Source: Campylobacterales bacterium | GTDB taxonomy: Bacteria; Campylobacterota; Campylobacteria; Campylobacterales; Sulfurovaceae | DNA: 10,690 nucleotides | Assembly: GCA_014763905.1 (NCBI GenBank) | Contig: JACXUN010000028.1 | Span: forward strand, 1 to 10,690 | Reading direction: 5' to 3' | Part shown: positions 20 to 10,690 of the stretch, piece after piece | How positions within the stretch are numbered: position 1 is the stretch's first letter | Layout of the letters: every line of letters begins with the position of its first letter | The notes under the pieces: generated by a model | Database searches by the model: none | Told to the model about the DNA's origin: nothing | Seen by the model: only the letters and a program-made list of their open reading frames with translations | Program-made: the position numbers and the translations under genes

Positions 20-2500
20 GTGAAAGCAATCGTATTAGCAGGCGGATTTGGAACCCGAATCCAACCATTAACCAACTCCATACCAAAACCAATGTTACCA
101 ATTTTAAACCGACCGATGATGGAGCATATTATTTTAAAACTGCGGGATGAATTGGGTATTACGGAGATTGCCGTATTATTATATTTTAAACCCGAAATTA
201 TCAAAGATCATTTTAAAGATGGCAGTGATTTGGGCGTTAAAATTCATTACGTTTTACCGGATGATGACTACGGAACGGCGGGTGCGGTTGCGTTCGCAAG
301 AGAGTTTTTGGATGAGACCTTTATTATCGTCAGCGGTGACCTCGTAACCGACTTTGATCTCAAAGCGATTAAATCATTCCATGATACCAAAAAATCCAAA
401 TTGACCATTACCCTCACCCCGGTAGAAAACCCGTTACAGTTTGGAGTGGTGATCGCCAATGAAGAGAACCGGATCGAGAAGTTTTTAGAAAAGCCGAGCT
501 GGGGAGAGGTATTCAGTGACACCATCAATACCGGTATCTACGTTATCGAACCGGAAATATTGAACTATATCCCATATGGAGAAAACTTTGACTTTGCCAA
601 AGACCTCTTCCCGAAACTGATGCAAGAAGATATTCCACTATGGGGATGTCCGTTAGAGGGGTATTGGCGAGATGTCGGAAACCCGATCAGCTATCGTGAT
701 GTCTATCAAGATATCTTTAATAAAGAGGTTACCCTTCAGATCAAAGGGGATAAATATGAGATCGATAATGGCGTCGTCTATTGTGAAGAGAAACCAAAAC
801 TGCCTAAAAAGATTCGTGTTAAAGGTATCGTCGTTTTAGGAAAAAGCTGTCAAATTGAAGAAGGAGTGACACTCAAAGATTGTTCAATCGGGGATAATGT
901 CACGATTGAGAAACACAGCGAAGTGATCGACAGTGTTATTTGGGACAATGTGACCATCGGAACCAAAGCCAAGATTGTCAACAGTGTCCTTTGTAACGAT
1001 AACATTATCGAAGATGAAGTCAAAGCCTCTTTTGGGGTCATCATGGCAGAGAAGTGTCATATCTATAAAAAAGTAGCCTTTGAAAAAGATATCATGATGT
1101 GGCCGGAGAAGATTGTCGAAGCCTCTTCCGTGGTCAGTACCAATGTGATCTGGGGTACCAAATATAAATCTTCGATTTTTGAAGATGGCTCAGTAGTCGG
1201 ACGAACCAATATCGAACTATCCTGTCAAATGAGTACCAAACTGGCTGAATCATTTGGTTCTATTCTACCGGTGGGTTCGACCGTCTATATATCAAGAGAC
1301 TACCACAGAAGTTCACGAATGCTAAAACGAGCCTTCTTAAGCGGAATGCTCTCTACCGGTATCAATGTCGTGGATCTCGTCAATGTACCATCTAACGTCA
1401 TGCGGCACCATTTGAGTAAAGATGATAAGATGATCGCCGGTATCCACTTTAGACGTTCGATTCTCAATCCAATGAATACCGAGATTCTCTTCTATACCAA
1501 TGAGGGGTTAGAGGTCGATTCTAAATTGGCTCAATCGATCGAACGAATCTTCTTTAGAGAAAACTTTAGACGCGTCAGTTATAACGAGATCGGTGAACTC
1601 TATGAAGATCACAGTGTCACTGAGCGATATATCAATGCGGTCTGGGAACGTTTTGATAAGAGTATCTTCAAAAGACGAGAGTTCAAAATCGCAGTCGATA
1701 TTATGCATGGCTCTACCGCCGATACCTATCCAAAGATTGCCAATGGATTAGGGATTGACAATATTATTCTCAATGCACACCATAGCGATAACGTCACCAG
1801 CTGTATCACTAAGTCACAAGAAGATATGGAGAGTATTGTTCGTGCATTAAGCCTCAATTGCGGATTTTTAATCTATCCAAACGGACACAAACTCCAGCTG
1901 GTTAACAGCAAAGGGGAGTTGATCTATGACTATGTGTTGTTACTCATTCTCCTTGATCTCTTAAACAGCACCGCAGAGCGGCCGATGAAAGTGTTATTGC
2001 CGGCATGGGCTCCGGATTATATTGAATATGAAAATATCACCATTACGAGAGCCAAATTGAGCAGTTTTAAAGCAGAGCAGCTGCAAGAGTATGATCTCAT
2101 TGCTGATACCGACGGACATTTTGCTTTTGCAGATTTCAGTCTCAATAGAGATGCCGTATTCACATCGTTTAAGCTTTTAGAGTTGATTATTAAAGCCGAT
2201 ACCAAGTTTATTCACGTGATTGATAAACTGCCGCAGTTTACCTTTGCTGGGGAAAATATCGCGTGTCCGAGCGAACTCAAAGGCAAAATGATGCGTAAAT
2301 TCCTCGAAGACGGTAAAGACAAGCGAACCTCTTCGATCGACGGTGTCAAAATTTGGGTCAGTGAAAATGAGTGGATATTGATGGTTCCAGATCAGCATGG
2401 TGAGTTCCTAAACCTCTATATCCAAGCCGAAAATGAAAAAAATGCGGGTAAAATATACTATCAATACAGCGAAAAAATAGAAAAGTGGATGAATGAGTAA
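20..2500 (+). CDS. Sugar-phosphate nucleotidyltransferase / degenerate phosphohexomutase fusion (ManC-PMM-like)
   Basis: Seen: GTG start, 826 aa. Residues 1-235 are a nucleotidyltransferase domain with GGFGTRIQPLT (8-18), PKPMLPI (22-28), SGD (105-107), EKP (157-159), NTGIY (170-174) and GYWRDVG (214-220). Residues about 265-365 hold hexapeptide (left-handed beta helix) repeats. Residues about 380-826 have the layout of an alpha-D-phosphohexomutase. Known: actinobacteria and cyanobacteria have proteins of the same length and architecture, usually annotated mannose-1-phosphate guanylyltransferase/phosphomannomutase. Such enzymes join an NTP to a sugar 1-phosphate in the cytoplasm. Odd: canonical mutase motifs are lost. 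The metal loop DGDADR corresponds to YPNGHK (619-624), the sugar loop GExSGH to ADTDGH (695-700), and the phosphate loop RPSGTEP to VPDQHGE (789-795). Ser480 is the only candidate for the phosphoserine. Inference: only the nucleotidyltransferase half is likely active. In this locus the substrate may be glucose 1-phosphate rather than mannose 1-phosphate, but sequence alone cannot decide. It is not a canonical GlgC. Its stop overlaps the next gene by 8 bp. Confidence 0.88.
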   Translation: MKAIVLAGGFGTRIQPLTNSIPKPMLPILNRPMMEHIILKLRDELGITEIAVLLYFKPEIIKDHFKDGSDLGVKIHYVLPDDDYGTAGAVAFAREFLDETFIIVSGDLVTDFDLKAIKSFHDTKKSKLTITLTPVENPLQFGVVIANEENRIEKFLEKPSWGEVFSDTINTGIYVIEPEILNYIPYGENFDFAKDLFPKLMQEDIPLWGCPLEGYWRDVGNPISYRDVYQDIFNKEVTLQIKGDKYEIDNGVVYCEEKPKLPKKIRVKGIVVLGKSCQIEEGVTLKDCSIGDNVTIEKHSEVIDSVIWDNVTIGTKAKIVNSVLCNDNIIEDEVKASFGVIMAEKCHIYKKVAFEKDIMMWPEKIVEASSVVSTNVIWGTKYKSSIFEDGSVVGRTNIELSCQMSTKLAESFGSILPVGSTVYISRDYHRSSRMLKRAFLSGMLSTGINVVDLVNVPSNVMRHHLSKDDKMIAGIHFRRSILNPMNTEILFYTNEGLEVDSKLAQSIERIFFRENFRRVSYNEIGELYEDHSVTERYINAVWERFDKSIFKRREFKIAVDIMHGSTADTYPKIANGLGIDNIILNAHHSDNVTSCITKSQEDMESIVRALSLNCGFLIYPNGHKLQLVNSKGELIYDYVLLLILLDLLNSTAERPMKVLLPAWAPDYIEYENITITRAKLSSFKAEQLQEYDLIADTDGHFAFADFSLNRDAVFTSFKLLELIIKADTKFIHVIDKLPQFTFAGENIACPSELKGKMMRKFLEDGKDKRTSSIDGVKIWVSENEWILMVPDQHGEFLNLYIQAENEKNAGKIYYQYSEKIEKWMNE

Positions 2501-5500
2501 AAAACTTTATCTCTCCTTCTTATGGCATATGCATCAGCCTTATTATAAAAATGATGTAACCAATACAACCTTGATGCCGTGGGTGTTTCTCCACGCCATC
2601 AAGGACTACTACGATATGCCATGGTATCTGAGTCAACACCCCTCGATCAAAGCGACCTTTAACCTTGTACCCTCTCTGCTGGAACAGATCGAATCTTATA
2701 TCGACGGAACGGCAAACGATAAGTTCTTAACGATTTTGGAAAAAGAGGTCAACCACCTCAATGAGAGCGATATCAAAATGTTGGAGGAGTATCTCTTCTT
2801 AGCCAACAGTGAGAATATGATCAAGCCGTTTGCACGCTATCACGCCCTATTTCAGAAGTACAAAGCACATCAAGAGTCTCTCAAAAGTTTCTCTTTGCAA
2901 GAGCTGCAAGATGTGCAAATCCTCTTTCTATTAAGCTGGTGCGGCAACTATCTGCGGGAAAAGAGTGAAATGATCAAAGAGTTGATTGATCAACAAGAGA
3001 ATTTCACCCATATTCAAAAAATCAAGCTGCTTGGTACACTCTTTGATTTTGTCACCGAGATCATACCATACTACAAAGCACTGATGAGATTGGAGCAGAT
3101 CGCCCTCTCAACTACGCCCTTTTACCACCCTATTCTACCGCTCTTAATCGATAGAGAGAAGAGTGCCAAAGCAGCGAGATGGGATGTCAAACTGCCAAAA
3201 ACTGAAGCCAACTACAGTGATTTCGCCCGTCTACATCTCCAAAAAGCGGTCGACTATTTTGAAGAGACCTTCAACCAAAAGCCCAAAGGGATGTGGCCCT
3301 CAGAAGGAAGCGTCAGCCAAAAAACGGCAGAGATGATCAGTGAGTATGAGGTGGAATGGATCTGTTCGGATGAAGAGATTCTTTTCAAAACACTCAAAAG
3401 CGATGACAGGAAGAACCTCTACAAACCCTATACGATTCAAAACGCAAACGGCAAACCGATCAATATCTTTTTTAGAGACCGCTATCTGAGTGATCGAATC
3501 GGATTTGAATACTCTAAAAAATCCCCCAAAGAGGCGGCATACGATTTTATCTCTCACCTGAAAAAAATCTATGAAAACAGCGAAAACGGTTCACTGGTCT
3601 CCGTTATCTTAGACGGCGAAAATGCATGGGAATTTTATGCCAATAACGGTAAAGACTTTTTCGATGAACTTTATCTGTTACTACAGAATCAGACTTGGTG
3701 TGAAACGGTCTTCTTTAATGAGATTGATCAAATCCAAGACCTTAAAAAAGTTCCGCTCACAGATTTAGCCGCCGGTAGCTGGATCAACGGCAACTTCGAT
3801 ATCTGGATCGGACACCGTGAAAAGAATGCGGCATGGGAACTGTTGGATGGAGCCAAAGTGGTCTATGATAAACTCAAAGCAACGTTTAATCCCGAAACCT
3901 TAGAGCAGATCGACAAAGAGTTTATGATCGCGTTGGGCAGCGACTGGTTCTGGTGGTACGGCGATGACCATTACACCTCACTCAAAGCACAATTTGATGA
4001 AGAGTTCAGAACCCATATCCGCAATATCTATGAACTGATGGAGAAAGAGCCGCCGCACAATCTCTCGGTGCCGATTGTAACCAAACAGAGCAAAACCAAA
4101 GAGACCTTTTTCTCCCAGCCGACCGGTACGATCAGCCCGATGATCAGCGGCAAGGTCAATAGCTTTTACGAGTGGTTCGGAAGCGGATTGATTGATCTCA
4201 AAAAAGAGTTGACGACGATGGATCGATCGCTGCATATTGAAGCGATCAACTACGGTACCGATTTAGATAAAAACATCTATTTCCTCTTTAAACTCAAAAA
4301 TCCTCAACGCATTACCGAAAACTCGGTTTTGAAAATCTATCTCAACGAGAAATCGTATGATATGCCGATCCAATCCAATACGATTCAAAGCTTCGATGAC
4401 AATGTCCGGATCGAATTGGGCTTCAAAGAGGCAATAGAACTCAAAATTGAAGGATTTGACCGCAACACTATCGACTTTGCCTTTGAACTGTTTGATCAGG
4501 ATCAGGTTATTTTACAAAAATTTCCACTCTATGAGACCTTCTTGCTGCATCTGCACAACCACAGTCTCAAACGGTGGAACCTAAATGCCGGAGAGAGTAA
4601 ATCGGAGTTCCGATACTGTAAACTGACCAAAGAGTGGACACTCTTCGCCCCCGAACGGCTCAAACGACCGGACGATGTCAATAATAAGGTCAAAAAACAT
4701 GTACGTGACGGCAGTGACTCCTGTCCTTTTGATCATGGCAAAGAGGATCTGACGCCTAAAGAGATCGCACGGATTGAAGACCATAACGGATGGCGATGCC
4801 GCGTCGTTCCCAATCTCTATAATGCCCTCTCCATTGACGGATCACCCAAGTCCATCAAAGATAGCTTTTTCGATAAGTTTACCGGATTTGGAGCCCATGA
4901 GGTATTGATCGAGACCCCAAACCACGAGCAGCAGATATGGGATTACAGTTTTGATGACTTTTATAACTACTTTTCACTGATGCAGAAACGGGTTATTGGT
5001 CTCCAAAACGATAAACGGTTCGCCTGTCTCTCGATTTTTAAAAATCACGGAGAGGGAGCCGGAGCTTCATTGATTCACTCTCACTCTCAGATCATCGCCC
5101 TGCCCTTTGTACCCAAAAAGCTAAAAGAGGAGATTGCACGGAAGCTAGAACATTATGAGACCTTCAAACGATCGATGCTAGACGATGCGGTTTATGAAGA
5201 GACTGCCTACGGAAAAAACATTGTAGCGGAAAACTCCGATTTTATCATCTACTGTCCCTATGCCTCCAAGTTTGAGTTTGAGGCAAAAATCGTCGCCAAA
5301 AAACCGCTTAGTTCATTGGCGGAATTTACCTCCAAAGATATCACCGCACTTAGTGATATCATTAAAGACTTTTTTAAACGGTTCCATAACGCCTTGGGCG
5401 ATATCCCGTTCAATATGATTATCAAAAATGCTCCGTATGAAAACTACTCCGAAAAGACCAAAGAGTATTTCCGTTTTCATATCAATATCCTACCGAGAAT

Positions 5501-5594
5501 CTACAAAAATGCCGGATTTGAACTCGACAGTGACATCTATATCAATCTCATACTGCCGGAAAATGCAACCAAAATCTATAAGGAAAATCTATGA
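2493..5594 (+). CDS. GH57 alpha-glucan-active enzyme fused to GalT-type nucleotidylyltransferase
   Basis: Seen: 1033 aa with two enzyme modules. Residues 1 to about 530 are a glycoside hydrolase family 57 barrel with the HMHQP motif (12-16), the presumed nucleophile Glu271 in GMWPSEG and the presumed acid Asp374 in ILDGENAWE. A beta-rich linker resembling the C-terminal part of GH57 amylases covers about 545-690. Residues about 700-1033 are a full-length GalT (galactose-1-phosphate uridylyltransferase family) with APERLKRP (719-726), TPNH (808-811), the HSHSQ active site (862-866, nucleophile His864) and FHINILPR (995-1002). Known: GH57 enzymes hydrolyse or transfer alpha-glucans with retention; GalT-family enzymes move a nucleotidyl group between a sugar nucleotide and a sugar 1-phosphate (or phosphate) via a histidine intermediate. 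Odd: the zinc motif CxxC reads CPFD (744-747). Inference: the fusion couples glucan trimming to sugar-nucleotide/sugar-1-phosphate exchange. The start ATG overlaps the previous gene by 8 bp without a strong ribosome site, suggesting translational coupling. No frameshift or internal stop is seen at the fusion, so this is one gene. Confidence 0.88.
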   Translation: MSKKLYLSFLWHMHQPYYKNDVTNTTLMPWVFLHAIKDYYDMPWYLSQHPSIKATFNLVPSLLEQIESYIDGTANDKFLTILEKEVNHLNESDIKMLEEYLFLANSENMIKPFARYHALFQKYKAHQESLKSFSLQELQDVQILFLLSWCGNYLREKSEMIKELIDQQENFTHIQKIKLLGTLFDFVTEIIPYYKALMRLEQIALSTTPFYHPILPLLIDREKSAKAARWDVKLPKTEANYSDFARLHLQKAVDYFEETFNQKPKGMWPSEGSVSQKTAEMISEYEVEWICSDEEILFKTLKSDDRKNLYKPYTIQNANGKPINIFFRDRYLSDRIGFEYSKKSPKEAAYDFISHLKKIYENSENGSLVSVILDGENAWEFYANNGKDFFDELYLLLQNQTWCETVFFNEIDQIQDLKKVPLTDLAAGSWINGNFDIWIGHREKNAAWELLDGAKVVYDKLKATFNPETLEQIDKEFMIALGSDWFWWYGDDHYTSLKAQFDEEFRTHIRNIYELMEKEPPHNLSVPIVTKQSKTKETFFSQPTGTISPMISGKVNSFYEWFGSGLIDLKKELTTMDRSLHIEAINYGTDLDKNIYFLFKLKNPQRITENSVLKIYLNEKSYDMPIQSNTIQSFDDNVRIELGFKEAIELKIEGFDRNTIDFAFELFDQDQVILQKFPLYETFLLHLHNHSLKRWNLNAGESKSEFRYCKLTKEWTLFAPERLKRPDDVNNKVKKHVRDGSDSCPFDHGKEDLTPKEIARIEDHNGWRCRVVPNLYNALSIDGSPKSIKDSFFDKFTGFGAHEVLIETPNHEQQIWDYSFDDFYNYFSLMQKRVIGLQNDKRFACLSIFKNHGEGAGASLIHSHSQIIALPFVPKKLKEEIARKLEHYETFKRSMLDDAVYEETAYGKNIVAENSDFIIYCPYASKFEFEAKIVAKKPLSSLAEFTSKDITALSDIIKDFFKRFHNALGDIPFNMIIKNAPYENYSEKTKEYFRFHINILPRIYKNAGFELDSDIYINLILPENATKIYKENL
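5580..5585 (+). promoter_or_regulatory. Ribosome binding site for glgA
   Basis: AAGGAA lies 5 nt before the ATG at 5591, inside the last codons of the GH57-GalT gene. The two genes share an ATGA stop/start overlap, so glgA translation is probably coupled but also has its own ribosome site. Confidence 0.65.
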
Positions 5595-7018
5595 GTATAC
5601 TCTTTGCCTCCAGCGAAATCTTCCCCTATGCCAAAAGCGGCGGACTCGCCGATGTCTCCCAAGCCCTTCCCGAGGCATTACGAAACAGTGAGCGGGTCTA
5701 TACCATCATGCCGCTTTATGACCTAATCGATCGAGAGAAATATAATCTTGTCTACAGCGGTTTGACCTTTGATTATTGGTTAGCCGGAATACAGCATCAA
5801 TTTGATATTTTTCACCGAGAAGATATGCCGGACGATCTTTTTGTCTACAATCCAATACTCTGCAATCGTCAAGGACTCTATAATGACCAACACGGGGATT
5901 TCGGAGATAATGGACTGCGATTTGGACTCTTCAGCTATGCCGTACTAGAGGTGATGATCCGTATGGAACTGGATATCCAGACCATCCATGTCAATGATTG
6001 GCAGAGTGCCTTGGTGCCATTGCTTGCTAAAACCCGCTACCACCTCCCGCAAAAAATTGTCCTCACCATTCACAATCTCGCCTATCAAGGAATCTTTGCC
6101 AAATCGGTGATGAATGAACTGGAGATCGATTGGGAAAAATGTTTCAAATTTGAGGGGTTGGAGTATTATGACAAAGTCAACTATCTCAAAGCCGGTATCT
6201 TTTTTGCCGACCAGATTACCACCGTTAGCCACAGCTATGCCAATGAGATTCAAACCCCGATATTTGGATATGGGCTGAATGAGACGCTTCAAGTCAACAG
6301 CCATAAACTCACCGGTATTCTCAACGGTATCAGTTACGAGGTATTTGATCCCAAAAGCGATCAAGACCTCTATAAAAACTTTACTGCCCGGACCTTTAAA
6401 AACGGAAAACTTAGCAATAAAAGTGCCTTGTTAGCCGAAGTAGGGCTGAGTGATGAGGGAAAACCGCTCTTTGTCTTTATCGGACGATTTACCAAACAGA
6501 AGGGACTCGATCTGATTTTAGAGAGTCTTTCACTCTTTAAAGATTTTGAAGCCAATGTGGTGATCCTAGGGAGTGGAGAGGATTATTATACCCACCGTTT
6601 TGCGGCATTAGCCAATCGCTATGACAATATCCGTATCATTATCGGATATGATGAGGCTCTCAGCCGAAAACTCTATGCCGGAGCCGACTTTCTGCTGATG
6701 CCGTCCATTTTTGAACCGTGCGGTCTCAATCAGATGATTGCGATGCGGTATGGGACGCTGCCGATTGTCGCCAAAACCGGAGGACTCAGAGATACGGTAA
6801 CCGATTTTACCGATATCGGAGAGCTGGAGAACCACGGCGGTGTCGGGATCACTTTTGAAGAGCATAATATGTTCTGGTTTATGCATGCCATCAGCAAAGC
6901 CCTCTCGCTTTACGGTAACCGTGAGAAATTTAATGAGATCGTCAAACACGATATGCAAGTGGATAACTCATGGAAACATTCGGCAGCACTTTATCGAGAA
7001 CTTTATCAACAACACTAG
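5591..7018 (+). CDS. glgA: Glycogen synthase (GT5)
   Basis: Bacterial glycogen/starch synthase elongates alpha-1,4-glucan chains in the cytoplasm from an NDP-glucose donor, classically ADP-glucose. Seen: 475 aa, the usual length for GlgA. Landmarks match the E. coli enzyme closely: KSGGLADV (15-22, donor-binding loop), HVNDW (133-137), HNLAYQG with His161 (161-167), GRFTKQKG with Arg299 and Lys304 (phosphate binding), the catalytic-site EPCGLNQM with Glu375 (375-382), and KTGGLRDTV (395-403). Both GT-B halves are intact and nothing is missing. The ATG start is the only one that gives a complete N-terminal strand (MSILFASSEIFPYAKSGG). It overlaps the preceding stop by 4 bp (ATGA). The donor is uncertain here because no GlgC is in view; the nucleotidyltransferase and the GalT domain upstream are candidate suppliers. 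Confidence 0.95.
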   Translation: MSILFASSEIFPYAKSGGLADVSQALPEALRNSERVYTIMPLYDLIDREKYNLVYSGLTFDYWLAGIQHQFDIFHREDMPDDLFVYNPILCNRQGLYNDQHGDFGDNGLRFGLFSYAVLEVMIRMELDIQTIHVNDWQSALVPLLAKTRYHLPQKIVLTIHNLAYQGIFAKSVMNELEIDWEKCFKFEGLEYYDKVNYLKAGIFFADQITTVSHSYANEIQTPIFGYGLNETLQVNSHKLTGILNGISYEVFDPKSDQDLYKNFTARTFKNGKLSNKSALLAEVGLSDEGKPLFVFIGRFTKQKGLDLILESLSLFKDFEANVVILGSGEDYYTHRFAALANRYDNIRIIIGYDEALSRKLYAGADFLLMPSIFEPCGLNQMIAMRYGTLPIVAKTGGLRDTVTDFTDIGELENHGGVGITFEEHNMFWFMHAISKALSLYGNREKFNEIVKHDMQVDNSWKHSAALYRELYQQH

Positions 7019-7030: not shown

Positions 7031-8674
7031 ATGCAACCGCTTCACCCTTATACCATTCGCCCAGAATATAGCACCAGTGTCGCCTACTTTTCAATGGAGT
7101 TTGCAATGCACCAAGCTCTCAAAATCTATTCCGGCGGACTTGGTTTTCTAGCCGGTTCCCATATGCGAAGTGCTTTTGATTTACAGCAAAACATGATCGG
7201 AATCGGTATCTTATGGAGTTACGGTTATTATGATCAAGCCCGAGATGAAGATCGCAATCTCAAAGTGGAGTTTAGACGCAAACGCTACTACTTTCTCGAA
7301 GATTTGAACACCACCGTCACCGTCACCATCAACGGCAAGCCGGTTCAGGTCAAAGCCTTCTTGGTGCCGGGCAAACTGTTTGGAACTGCACCGCTGATCC
7401 TGCTTACGACCGATATTCCGGAAAATGATTACCTCTCCCGCACCATTACCCATAAACTCTATGATGCCAACAATGAGACCCGTATCGCACAGGAGATCGT
7501 ACTTGGTATCGGCGGAGCCAAAGTACTAGAACAGATCAATCACCCCGTCGATATCTACCATATGAATGAGGGTCATGCCTTGCCGATGGTCTTTGAACTC
7601 TATAGTCGATACCGCAATCTCGATGAACTCAAACGCCGAGTGGTCTTTACCACCCATACACCAGAGCGAGCCGGAAACGAAGAGCATAATATTCACCTGC
7701 TGCACCGTATGGGCTTCTTTAACGGTCTCTCACTCGAAGAGGTTCGCAGCATTACCGGTATCCAAGGGGAGCAGTTTAGTCTCACCGTCGGAGCCTTAAC
7801 CACCGCGAAAATCGCCAACGGTGTCTCCAAGATTCACGGTGAAGTCGCCAATCAAATGTGGTTCAATATCGAAAACCGCTGTGAGATCATCTCCATCACC
7901 AATGCCCAAAACAAAAAGTACTGGACCGATAAAGGACTCTTACGTGCCGTTGAAGAGGCGAAAGACTTTGAACTGGAAGCCCGTAAAAAACATCTCAAAC
8001 GGCTGCTTTTTATCGAGGTGGCGAACCAGACCGGAAAGATGTTCGACCCGGAAGTCCTCACCATCGTCTGGGCGAGACGCTTTGCCGAATATAAACGCCC
8101 ACGGCTGTTAGAGTATGATTTTGCACGTTTTGCCAAATTGATCACCGATGCCAACTATCCGATCCAGATCATCTGGGCGGGAAAACCGTATCCGTTTGAC
8201 AGTCAAGCGGTCAACTTCTTTAATGAGTTGAACTATATGAGCCGTGAGTATAAAAATGTGGCAGTGCTGGTCGGATACGAGCTCAATCTCTCCATGATGC
8301 TCAAAAAAGGTGCCGATATCTGGCTCAATACTCCAAGAATGACCCGCGAGGCGAGCGGTACCAGCGGGATGACGGCAGCAATGAACGGAGCGATTCACCT
8401 CTCTATGCCGGACGGATGGCATCCTGAGTTTTGTCGGGAAGGGATTAACGCCTTTACGATTCCGGCTCAACAACCGGGACTCTCCAATGAAGAGCAAGAT
8501 CACCTAGATAACGCCAATCTCATGGAGCTATTGGAAAACAAAGTGATTCCACTCTATTATGACGACCCAAAACAGTGGGTCGAGATGATGAAAAATGCGA
8601 TTCATGACATCGCACCGACGTTTGATTCAGGGCGAATGGCTCATGAATATTATGAGAAGATGTATAATAAATAG
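7031..8674 (+). CDS. glgP: Short alpha-glucan phosphorylase homologue (GT35-like) lacking the PLP lysine
   Basis: Known: GT35 phosphorylases release glucose 1-phosphate from alpha-1,4-glucans using pyridoxal phosphate (PLP) bound to a lysine. Seen: 547 aa, shorter than the roughly 700-850 aa of most family members, beginning directly at the conserved core VAYFSMEFA (17-25) and YSGGLGFLAG (33-42), without the N-terminal extension found in many relatives. Other family landmarks are HMNEGH (177-182), FTTHTPERAG (206-215), WARRFAEYKRP (347-357; Arg350 and Lys355 correspond to the phosphate-binding pair of rabbit phosphorylase), TREASGTSGM (438-447, Glu440) and the C-terminal RMAHEYYEKMY (535-545). 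Odd: the residue after SGM, a PLP-bearing lysine in the family, is Thr448 (codon ACG, 8372-8374). Inference: it may not be a PLP phosphorylase at all. It could be a nucleotide-sugar glycosyltransferase on the same fold, a glucan-binding regulatory protein, or an enzyme inactivated by mutation or misread base. A 12-bp gap separates it from glgA. Confidence 0.85.
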   Translation: MQPLHPYTIRPEYSTSVAYFSMEFAMHQALKIYSGGLGFLAGSHMRSAFDLQQNMIGIGILWSYGYYDQARDEDRNLKVEFRRKRYYFLEDLNTTVTVTINGKPVQVKAFLVPGKLFGTAPLILLTTDIPENDYLSRTITHKLYDANNETRIAQEIVLGIGGAKVLEQINHPVDIYHMNEGHALPMVFELYSRYRNLDELKRRVVFTTHTPERAGNEEHNIHLLHRMGFFNGLSLEEVRSITGIQGEQFSLTVGALTTAKIANGVSKIHGEVANQMWFNIENRCEIISITNAQNKKYWTDKGLLRAVEEAKDFELEARKKHLKRLLFIEVANQTGKMFDPEVLTIVWARRFAEYKRPRLLEYDFARFAKLITDANYPIQIIWAGKPYPFDSQAVNFFNELNYMSREYKNVAVLVGYELNLSMMLKKGADIWLNTPRMTREASGTSGMTAAMNGAIHLSMPDGWHPEFCREGINAFTIPAQQPGLSNEEQDHLDNANLMELLENKVIPLYYDDPKQWVEMMKNAIHDIAPTFDSGRMAHEYYEKMYNK

Positions 8675-8741: not shown

Positions 8742-9392
8742 ATGCATAAATCTAATCAAGATTTGGCTCATAAAAGTATCAGTATCGAAAACGATTTTTC
8801 CAGTACTTCACACGCCATTGATACCACTACCTACGATAACCCTAATGAAGAAGTGAATAAATTTCCAATTCCTAGTCGATACAACAGAGACTATCTCAGA
8901 CTGCTTCCCGTCAACTTATCCACCTATTATATCTATTGGGAGGTTTCAGATCAAACACTTCAACAAAATCAACTCGATTTGAACCACGATCAGTTGATAT
9001 TTAAAGTCTATCATGGAGAGCGTATCGTGTTTGAATTCACCTCCTCTTTTGCTCTGGGTGAATACTTTTTAGATCAAACCTTTGAAGATCGAGATATTCA
9101 CGTCTCAATCGGTTTTCCAAAGGATAATGTTTTTACGGAGTTGATGCACTCCAATACGGTGCATACCTTCTCCAACCAACTCAAATGGCCTTCACCGGAA
9201 GATGAGATATGGATCAAAAGAGAAAAAGTATGGATCGATATGCTTACCTCCACCATGCAGTCTCAGATGATAAGCGGCGGTATCTCTTCGGCACAATATA
9301 TTGAAGAGATCGAACGGCTAAAGCAGTTGAGCCGTGTCGATGAGGAGCAGTTCAGCTCCAGCAGCTTACATAAAGGAGTAGAAAATGGTTAA
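8742..9392 (+). CDS. DUF4912 domain-containing protein
   Basis: Seen: 216 aa, no signal peptide and no membrane segment. Residues 1-40 are polar and probably disordered. Residues about 43-150 match the DUF4912 pattern: IPSRYNRDYLRLLPV (43-57) followed by the aromatic strand YYIYWEVSD (62-70), then beta-rich sequence. The tail (about 155-200) is charged and helical, with a serine-rich end. Known: DUF4912 proteins have no assigned reaction; their genes are, from my recollection, often found beside GH57/DUF1957 branching enzymes. Inference: given the tryptophan/tyrosine-rich beta fold and its coupling to the next gene, it may bind glucan or assist the branching enzyme, but it has no recognisable catalytic motif. 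It is the first gene behind its own promoter, and its stop overlaps the next start by 8 bp. Confidence 0.8.
   Translation: MHKSNQDLAHKSISIENDFSSTSHAIDTTTYDNPNEEVNKFPIPSRYNRDYLRLLPVNLSTYYIYWEVSDQTLQQNQLDLNHDQLIFKVYHGERIVFEFTSSFALGEYFLDQTFEDRDIHVSIGFPKDNVFTELMHSNTVHTFSNQLKWPSPEDEIWIKREKVWIDMLTSTMQSQMISGGISSAQYIEEIERLKQLSRVDEEQFSSSSLHKGVENG
9372..9378 (+). promoter_or_regulatory. Ribosome binding site for the GH57 branching enzyme
   Basis: AAAGGAG lies 6 nt before the ATG at 9385, within the end of the DUF4912 gene. It fixes the start of the downstream frame, which is open to the window end and begins with the conserved GH57 N-terminus GYWVPVLHSHLPFV. Confidence 0.8.
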
Positions 9393-10690
9393 AGGTTATT
9401 GGGTACCGGTTCTTCACTCCCATCTCCCGTTTGTCAAACATCCCGAGTATGATAACTTCTTGGAAGAGCATTGGCTCTTTGAGGCGATCACTGAGTGTTA
9501 TATCCCGCTGTTTCAACGTCTCAAACAGCTTGAAGAGGAGCAGATTCCGTTTAAATTGACCACCTCAGTTACCCCGCCGTTAGCCGAGATGCTCGATGAT
9601 GCTCACCTGATGCAGAAGTACCAAGTCTATCTGGATCGGCAGATCGAACTGGGCGAAAAAGAGGTGCAGCGAACCGCAGACAGTGATGAGTATCGTGATA
9701 TCGCCCGTTTTTATCACAACCTCTTTGTGGAGACCAAAGCCTTTTTTAACGGTTTCTTAGCCGGTAATGTTCTTAATGGCTATCGGCACTTTTACAACGC
9801 CGGTTCACTAGAAGTAATCACCTGCGGAGCAACCCACGGTTTCCTCCCGCTTCTCAATGTGAATAAGAAAGCGGTCGAGGTGCAAATCGAAGTGGCTGTC
9901 CAAGCCCACAAAAAACATTTCAACCGAGCACCGCGGGGAATCTGGCTGCCGGAGTGTGCCTATTATGATGGATTGGATGAGATTCTCAAAGCCAATGAGA
10001 TTGATTTCTTTATCGTCGACTCTCATGCCTTAGTCTATGGACGACCAACCGCGATGTATGGGGTTTATGCTCCGGCTTATACGCCACACTCGGTGGCTGC
10101 CTTTGGTCGTGATGCCGAATCCTCCAAACAGGTTTGGAGTTCCAAGGAAGGATATCCGGGAGATTTGAACTATCGAGACTTCTATCGCGATATCGGATAT
10201 GACTTGGATTATGACTATATCCAACCGTATATCAATCCGGACGGAGTAAGGGTCTTTACCGGGTATAAATACCATAAAATCACCGGTGAAACCGATCACA
10301 AAGAGGTCTATGTGCCGCATGTCGCCAAATCCAGAACCGCTGACCACGCCCGAAATTTCCACTACAACCGGGAAAAGCAATTAGAGCATCTTGGCTCATT
10401 GATGGACAGAACGCCGATGATCGTCTCCCCGTACGATGCCGAACTTTTTGGACACTGGTGGTTTGAAGGACCGGATTTCCTCTATCACCTCTTCAAAGAG
10501 ATTCATCAGCATGGGGTGATCAAAGCCATCACGCCGTTAGACTACCTCACGATGTATCCGCAAAACCAGATGGTCAATCCAAATCCCTCCTCTTGGGGTG
10601 ATAAAGGCTACTACGATGTCTGGTTGAACCGTGAAAATGCCTGGATCTATCGACACCTACATCAGATGGCAGACGTGATTTGTGAAAAGG
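9385..10690 (+). CDS. GH57 1,4-alpha-glucan branching enzyme with DUF1957 (partial, 3' end outside window)
   Basis: Known: GH57 branching enzymes of the Thermococcus TK1436 type cleave alpha-1,4 chains and reattach them as alpha-1,6 branches in glycogen. Seen: 435 complete codons are visible and the frame is still open at the window edge. The family is usually about 520-560 aa, so roughly 90-120 residues are missing, mostly from the C-terminal DUF1957 helical bundle. Motifs: HSHLPFV (11-17), the nucleophile Glu190 in IWLPECAYYDG, the acid Asp351 in SPYDAELFGHWWFEGP (348-363), and the substrate-site tryptophans Trp404 in SSWG and Trp413 in DVWLN. All expected catalytic residues are present. 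The start overlaps the DUF4912 gene by 8 bp and has its own ribosome site. Inference: it provides the branching step for the glucan made by GlgA, in place of a GH13 GlgB, which is absent from the window. Confidence 0.9.
   Translation, partial: MVKGYWVPVLHSHLPFVKHPEYDNFLEEHWLFEAITECYIPLFQRLKQLEEEQIPFKLTTSVTPPLAEMLDDAHLMQKYQVYLDRQIELGEKEVQRTADSDEYRDIARFYHNLFVETKAFFNGFLAGNVLNGYRHFYNAGSLEVITCGATHGFLPLLNVNKKAVEVQIEVAVQAHKKHFNRAPRGIWLPECAYYDGLDEILKANEIDFFIVDSHALVYGRPTAMYGVYAPAYTPHSVAAFGRDAESSKQVWSSKEGYPGDLNYRDFYRDIGYDLDYDYIQPYINPDGVRVFTGYKYHKITGETDHKEVYVPHVAKSRTADHARNFHYNREKQLEHLGSLMDRTPMIVSPYDAELFGHWWFEGPDFLYHLFKEIHQHGVIKAITPLDYLTMYPQNQMVNPNPSSWGDKGYYDVWLNRENAWIYRHLHQMADVICEK

Follow-up and report, generated by a model that had tools for sequence, protein, structure and literature searches.

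The window analyzed here, a stretch of 10,690 nucleotides from a member of the Campylobacterales, harbors a glycogen gene cluster of which all six described genes are located on the plus strand. The genes, and the segment of the GT35 protein that is central to this study, are as follows:

20..2500, plus strand: fusion of a nucleotidyltransferase, a left-handed beta-helix and a phosphoglucomutase, 826 aa (domain matches)
2493..5594, plus strand: GH57 domain fused to a galactose-1-phosphate uridylyltransferase-like domain, 1033 aa (domain matches)
5591..7018, plus strand: glgA, GT5 glycogen synthase, directly upstream of the GT35 gene (TIGR02095, 495.4 bits; cut-off: 328.45)
7031..8674, plus strand: short GT35 protein without the cofactor lysine, 547 aa, TIGR02094 family (translation of the open reading frame)
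8342..8374, plus strand: active-site segment TREASGTSGM-T448 of the GT35 protein (translation of the open reading frame; alignment with MalP)
8742..9392, plus strand: DUF4912 protein (PF16258, 57.7 bits)
9385..10689, plus strand: GH57 branching-enzyme-like gene, incomplete at the window end (domain matches)

The 826-aa fusion protein at 20–2500 is a possible supplier of NDP-sugars. None of 298 Campylobacterota genomes contained a GlgC above the family cut-off, while GlgA was found in 44 of them; 42 of these 44 exhibited a weaker GlgC match within a frame of about 830–875 aa resembling the nucleotidyltransferase/phosphoglucomutase fusion of the window. The GH57 and GalT-like parts of the protein encoded at 2493–5594 occur as separate frames in the neighborhoods of relatives (loci L087 and L109). 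The DUF4912 gene sits between the GT35 gene and the gene of the GH57 branching enzyme, and DUF4912-like frames were also present near the GT35 gene in two loci of relatives (L025 and L033).

The 547-aa protein scored 457.5 bits with TIGR02094 (curated cut-off: 191.7) and 55.9 bits with PF00343 (curated cut-off: 27) and is thus above both cut-offs. Its named relatives are annotated as alpha-glucan family phosphorylase or starch/glycogen phosphorylase, and the AlphaFold model (pLDDT 94) displays a minimal phosphorylase core with a phosphorylase-type GT-B fold. By homology and predicted fold, the window protein is therefore a GT35 member. With the GlgA model TIGR02095 it reached 30.6 bits, which is below the cut-off of 328.45, and it fails the test for a GT5 glycogen synthase. 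A preliminary description of this locus, made from the sequence alone, had placed the gene directly after glgA, and indeed 12 bases separate the end of glgA (7018) from the start of the GT35 gene (7031). It had also called the protein short. This is correct in comparison with the frames of about 680–980 aa found for most lysine-bearing forms, but it does not set the protein apart from all of them, because lysine-bearing forms of about 550–610 aa exist as well. Used as a length control in a protein search, this short lysine-bearing group exhibited the lysine in 120 of 120 cases among the matches listed. A GT35 protein can therefore be short and still keep its lysine; the two traits are independent, and shortness as the cause of the lysine loss is ruled out.

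Translation confirmed that residues 438–447 read TREASGTSGM and that residue 448 is a threonine, its codon being ACG at 8372–8374. The alignment used to place this residue comprised 115 members of the short, lysine-less clade to which the window protein belongs, 45 lysine-bearing TIGR02094 proteins (referred to as cousins) as well as MalP and GlgP from E. coli. In agreement with the preliminary description, T448 occupies the PLP lysine position, as it aligns with K646 of MalP, the lysine carrying PLP according to a review (PMC11046441). At this position, the aligned clade members have threonine (82), serine (32) or alanine (1), and all 45 other TIGR02094 proteins have lysine. Most of the 115 aligned clade members came from a motif scan that shuts out lysine; residue 448 was therefore also counted in samples that were collected without any motif.

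The window protein and the distant clade member L075 each served as query in a protein search. Among the 240 homologs listed, the best 120 of 8000 matches from each search, none has lysine (S 213, T 25, A 1, G 1, window protein included), an absence that exceeds chance. The preliminary description had considered the case that the closest relatives all have lysine here. Yet the search with the window protein returned, among the best 120 of 8000, 119 other relatives with 68–79% identity, and lysine is found in none of them. A further sample consisted of loci picked by their TIGR02094 matches from Campylobacterota, Bacteroidota, Verrucomicrobiota and the phylum of a Gastranaerophilales locus. Among these fetched loci, which were partly hand-picked from match tables, lysine is missing from 75 of 75 members of the short clade, window included, with T (39), S (35) or A (1) in its place, and it is present in 74 of 74 TIGR02094 members outside the clade; four single-match loci (L234–L237) were assigned to the clade after reading, and the clade count is 71 of 71 when they are left out. 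Among genes read later, seven more clade members carry serine or threonine and one more long form carries lysine. Within the clade, position 448 holds only small residues (S, T, A, G), as expected if space matters there. The lysine-less GT35 is a fixed state of this clade, with the lysine replaced by serine or threonine.

The other mapped residues of the active site are retained. R350, K355 and E440, which the preliminary description had listed as kept, match R535, K540 and E638 of MalP and are identical in all 115 aligned clade sequences. The same holds for Y354, G443, T444, H209, N291, W298, G35 and G36, while Y416, R349 and Y19 are identical in 114 of 115. The counterparts of MalP R535, K540, Y539, E638, H346 and N450 are unchanged throughout the aligned clade, and site residues that are invariant in the lysine-bearing cousins are, as far as they were mapped in the alignment, otherwise kept. 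The view that the cofactor anchor is lost from an otherwise preserved active site thus stands, with no lysine among the 240 homologs listed and with near-invariant mapped residues around its position. Several of these residues are expected to have the roles assigned to their counterparts in rabbit phosphorylase, and Y19, G35, G36, W298, R349, Y416 and T444 presumably lie close to the cofactor site.

Some differences to MalP are shared between the clade and its cousins, namely R349 for K534, E180 for D308 and S445 for G643. A fixed counterpart of MalP K554, a ligand of the PLP phosphate according to the same review (PMC11046441), is absent in the clade, and equally in the 45 cousins and in GlgP from E. 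coli. A marked clade-specific change is E417, located beside Y416: all 115 aligned members have glutamate there, and the 45 aligned cousins have N, G or D. In the motif-free set, E417 was found in 74 of 75 clade members, the exception being a failed pattern match, and the 74 lysine-bearing members exhibited N (25), D (25), G (13), E (1) and S (1) besides nine failed matches. The GYE..LS segment of the clade looks closer to GlgA than to phosphorylases. When equal-sized sets were compared by profile with 22 GlgA proteins, the clade scored 91.8 and the cousins 81.0. Of five lysine-less proteins, three were matched by TIGR02095 at 35.9–50.4 bits, across about 370 or more positions of the model; of five lysine-bearing proteins, two gave partial matches of 24.2 and 18.9 bits. 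Judged from these sequence comparisons, the likeness of the clade to GlgA appears to exceed that of the cousins modestly.

The lysine-less branch of the glycogen phosphorylase family is widespread in bacteria. A scan for the lysine-less motif in one genome per species yielded at least 119 loci, with the motif lying within a GT35 reading frame in 119 of 119. Eighty of these at least 119 loci belong to Bacteroidota, Verrucomicrobiota, Gastranaerophilales/Melainabacteria and Campylobacterota (including a Desulfurellales MAG), and furthermore to two Halopseudomonas, to MAGs labeled Sphingomonadales or Beijerinckiaceae and to two unplaced bacteria. The 43 clade members included in a 76-protein tree formed a single branch (support 100/99), the stem of which measures 0.75 changes per column; the support for the lysine-bearing group was 61/83. 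With GlgA as outgroup, the clade was supported with 100/100 and TIGR02094 as a whole with 92/93. The lysine-bearing proteins were paraphyletic in this rooted tree, at weak support values, and the clade was located inside or beside the lysine-bearing TIGR02094 proteins. As the best tree places the clade there, the lysine was probably lost, and these sequences favor one old loss. A PLP-free state ancestral to GT35 is disfavored by the best GlgA-rooted tree, with the reservation that an alternative tree joining lysine-bearing TIGR02094 and canonical enzymes stands (AU p 0.279) and that long branches meet at this point.

Thirty-eight of the 298 Campylobacterota genomes carry the lysine-less form and all 38 of them contain GlgA, which occurs in only six Campylobacterota genomes without this form (Fisher p 4e-42, a value that ignores kinship). 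The lysine-less gene and glgA share a strand at a distance of up to 15 kb in 27 of the 38 genomes; they are farther apart on one contig in two and on different contigs in nine. About half of the Campylobacterota genomes with the lysine-less gene exhibit two GlgA matches, often adjacent to each other. A long, lysine-bearing paralog is also present in 10 of the 38 holders and was not seen in the other 28; reading confirmed the lysine in 15 long forms from Campylobacterota. This coexistence suggests a different job for the lysine-less form. In the genome of the window itself, no GT35 was seen besides the 547-aa protein.

Among 50 genomes hand-picked from the at least 119 motif loci, a lysine-bearing GT35 was not seen in 49. 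The exception, the genome of locus L108, contains an additional long form with lysine. In one of the 50 genomes there are two lysine-less genes, and in one the gene is accompanied by an additional lysine-less fragment. Likewise, a lysine-bearing GT35 was not seen in any of 33 Bacteroidota holders; the model used for this search does match in E. coli, which served as positive control. Concerning synthases, 26 of the 50 genomes contain GlgA above cut-off, seven others a GT3 synthase above cut-off and seven more a full-length or split GlgA-like gene below cut-off, and in 10 neither GT3 nor a full-length GlgA-like match was found. Most of these genomes, though not all, thus combine the lysine-less protein with a glycogen synthase. 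Outside Campylobacterota, no constant gene partner was found among the loci laid out, and the 20 neighbors scanned there included few sugar enzymes (GH31, GH13 of the branching type, phosphoglucomutase, GH77).

Within 296 Bacteroidota genomes, the short pattern was found in 33 and a TIGR02094 match above cut-off in 166 others, with both together not being seen; the number of 33 is a tally from best E-values and match numbers, and second matches of some long-form genomes lie outside this tally. Replacement of the ordinary phosphorylase by the lysine-less form would fit the Bacteroidota, where it is confounded with phylogeny, but it fails in the Campylobacterota, in which 10 of 38 holders have both.

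The explanation we prefer, with a probability of roughly 0.45, is that the clade consists of PLP-independent alpha-glucan phosphorylases. The clade of minimal GT35 enzymes to which the window protein belongs would then be old and functional, the lysine having been lost most likely once and a small residue (S/T, rarely A/G) having become fixed in its place. The window protein would most likely be a PLP-independent alpha-1,4-glucan phosphorylase that acts on glycogen at its non-reducing end, with the glucosyl unit held by E440, S442, G443, N291 and H209 and the phosphate by R350, K355, Y354 and the glycine loop G35-G36, roles that are carried over from phosphorylase and presumably apply here. 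The proton relay provided by the PLP 5′-phosphate may have been taken over by phosphate or a second oxyanion in the emptied cofactor pocket, and the partner in glycogen turnover would be glycogen synthase. Both the phosphorylase activity and the absence of bound PLP are what we infer as parts of the best explanation, and we know of no activity for any clade member. PLP-independent phosphorolysis is ranked first because the residues for glucose and phosphate match those of phosphorylases, no other kind of GT35 is seen in many of the genomes and a synthase is its usual company. In GT4, trehalose phosphorylases are not known to need PLP.

The ranking is also based on an archaeal precedent and on literature describing phosphate as proton donor. 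The glycogen phosphorylase of Methanococcus maripaludis was reported to be PLP-independent (Gonzalez-Ordenes et al., 2024, doi 10.1101/2024.09.29.615707), as cited in a plant review (PMC12267944). That enzyme is archaeal, and glycogen phosphorolysis without PLP, as reported for it, is the mechanism proposed for the clade. According to another review, phosphate itself can serve as proton donor in GT4 and GT35 phosphorylases (PMC8950772). Evidence speaking against the phosphorylase reading comprises the coexistence with a lysine-bearing paralog in 10 of 38 genomes, the 10 of 50 genomes with neither GT3 nor a full-length GlgA-like match, E417 and the GlgA-like GYE..LS segment.

The preliminary description had suggested a change of chemistry rather than decay, with a nucleotide-sugar-dependent synthase or a glucan sensor as examples. 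Decay is indeed ruled out, whereas PLP-independent phosphorolysis is at least as good an explanation as either example. The emptied PLP pocket could bind a nucleotide, so that the enzyme adds glucose from NDP-glucose, or forms NDP-glucose, beside GlgA. The clade, present in at least five bacterial phyla, would then be a second glycogen synthase or an NDP-glucose-forming breakdown enzyme and, if so, the first non-phosphorylase GT35. We consider this unlikely, as the protein has Y354, T444 and the glucose site EASGTS in common with phosphorylases, all 38 Campylobacterota holders already possess GlgA, and the TIGR02095 score of the window protein is far below the cut-off. The likeness to GlgA is modest as well, with TIGR02095 missing two of five clade proteins and weakly matching two of five lysine-bearing ones.

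A catalytically inert glucan-binding protein, acting as a sensor or as a partner of GlgA, would agree with the close glgA linkage in Campylobacterota and with the lysine-type enzyme coexisting in 10 of 38 genomes there. It is nonetheless rather improbable: a pure binder would have no need for the other mapped catalytic residues, yet they are unchanged in all 115 aligned sequences, and in most other genomes examined no other kind of GT35 was seen. Still less credible is a PLP-type phosphorylase that keeps PLP (or another B6 phosphate) loosely bound without a Schiff base. The residues kept in at least 114 of 115 sequences around the cofactor site (Y19, G35, G36, W298, R349, Y416, T444) would suit it, and the PLP phosphate is the proposed acid/base in phosphorylase (PMC6411801), but it is hard to square with lysine in none of the 240 homologs listed and in none of the 75 clade members, and the kept residues may instead hold the substrate or the fold. 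Finally, base 8373 is, as the preliminary description had pointed out, the middle base of ACG and its change alone restores a lysine codon, but the sequencing error or recent mutation considered there, or a pseudogene, has a negligible probability and is ruled out by the 119 lysine-less relatives among the matches listed and by open frames in several phyla.

From the systems known so far, the clade can be distinguished in several respects. The lysine-bearing TIGR02094 phosphorylases, many of which are longer than the clade proteins, had the lysine in every case read. The solved example among them, the glycogen phosphorylase of Segatella copri (9l6i/20yr), has the PLP lysine according to the alignment of 9l6i, unlike the clade. 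Canonical GT35 enzymes such as MalP and GlgP from E. coli comprise about 800 aa, carry PLP on K646 (MalP) and are distant from the clade in the tree. GT5 GlgA appears similar to the clade in its GT-B fold, its R/K/E phosphate and sugar residues and its GY(E/D)..LS segment, but it uses ADP-glucose. No description of a lysine-less bacterial GT35 or of the bacterial clade was found in open-licence papers.

As the PLP lysine is absent, the window protein should not be classified among the PLP-dependent phosphorylases, regardless of any name assigned to it automatically. The lysine-less glycogen enzymes probably work without PLP or catalyze a different reaction. Where a genome is now annotated as having an ordinary phosphorylase, frequently as its only GT35, glycogen may therefore be mobilized (or made) by other chemistry, and this large and stable clade, which lacks the PLP lysine, represents a natural test of the role of PLP in glycogen phosphorolysis.

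Several further observations concern related genes. Many Bacteroidota genomes (e.g., G305, G317, G324, G334) contain a frame of about 270–310 aa whose match to GlgA is confined to the N-terminal half (about positions 2–220), and several such genomes are without a full-length GlgA match. In a Campylobacterota genome without GlgA match (G053, locus L020), several stop codons interrupt the TIGR02094 gene, which covers profile positions skipped by the short clade and thus looks like a decaying long form. Genome G494 (loci L184, L214 and L215) contains one long and two short lysine-bearing TIGR02094 enzymes together with a weaker GT35 match.
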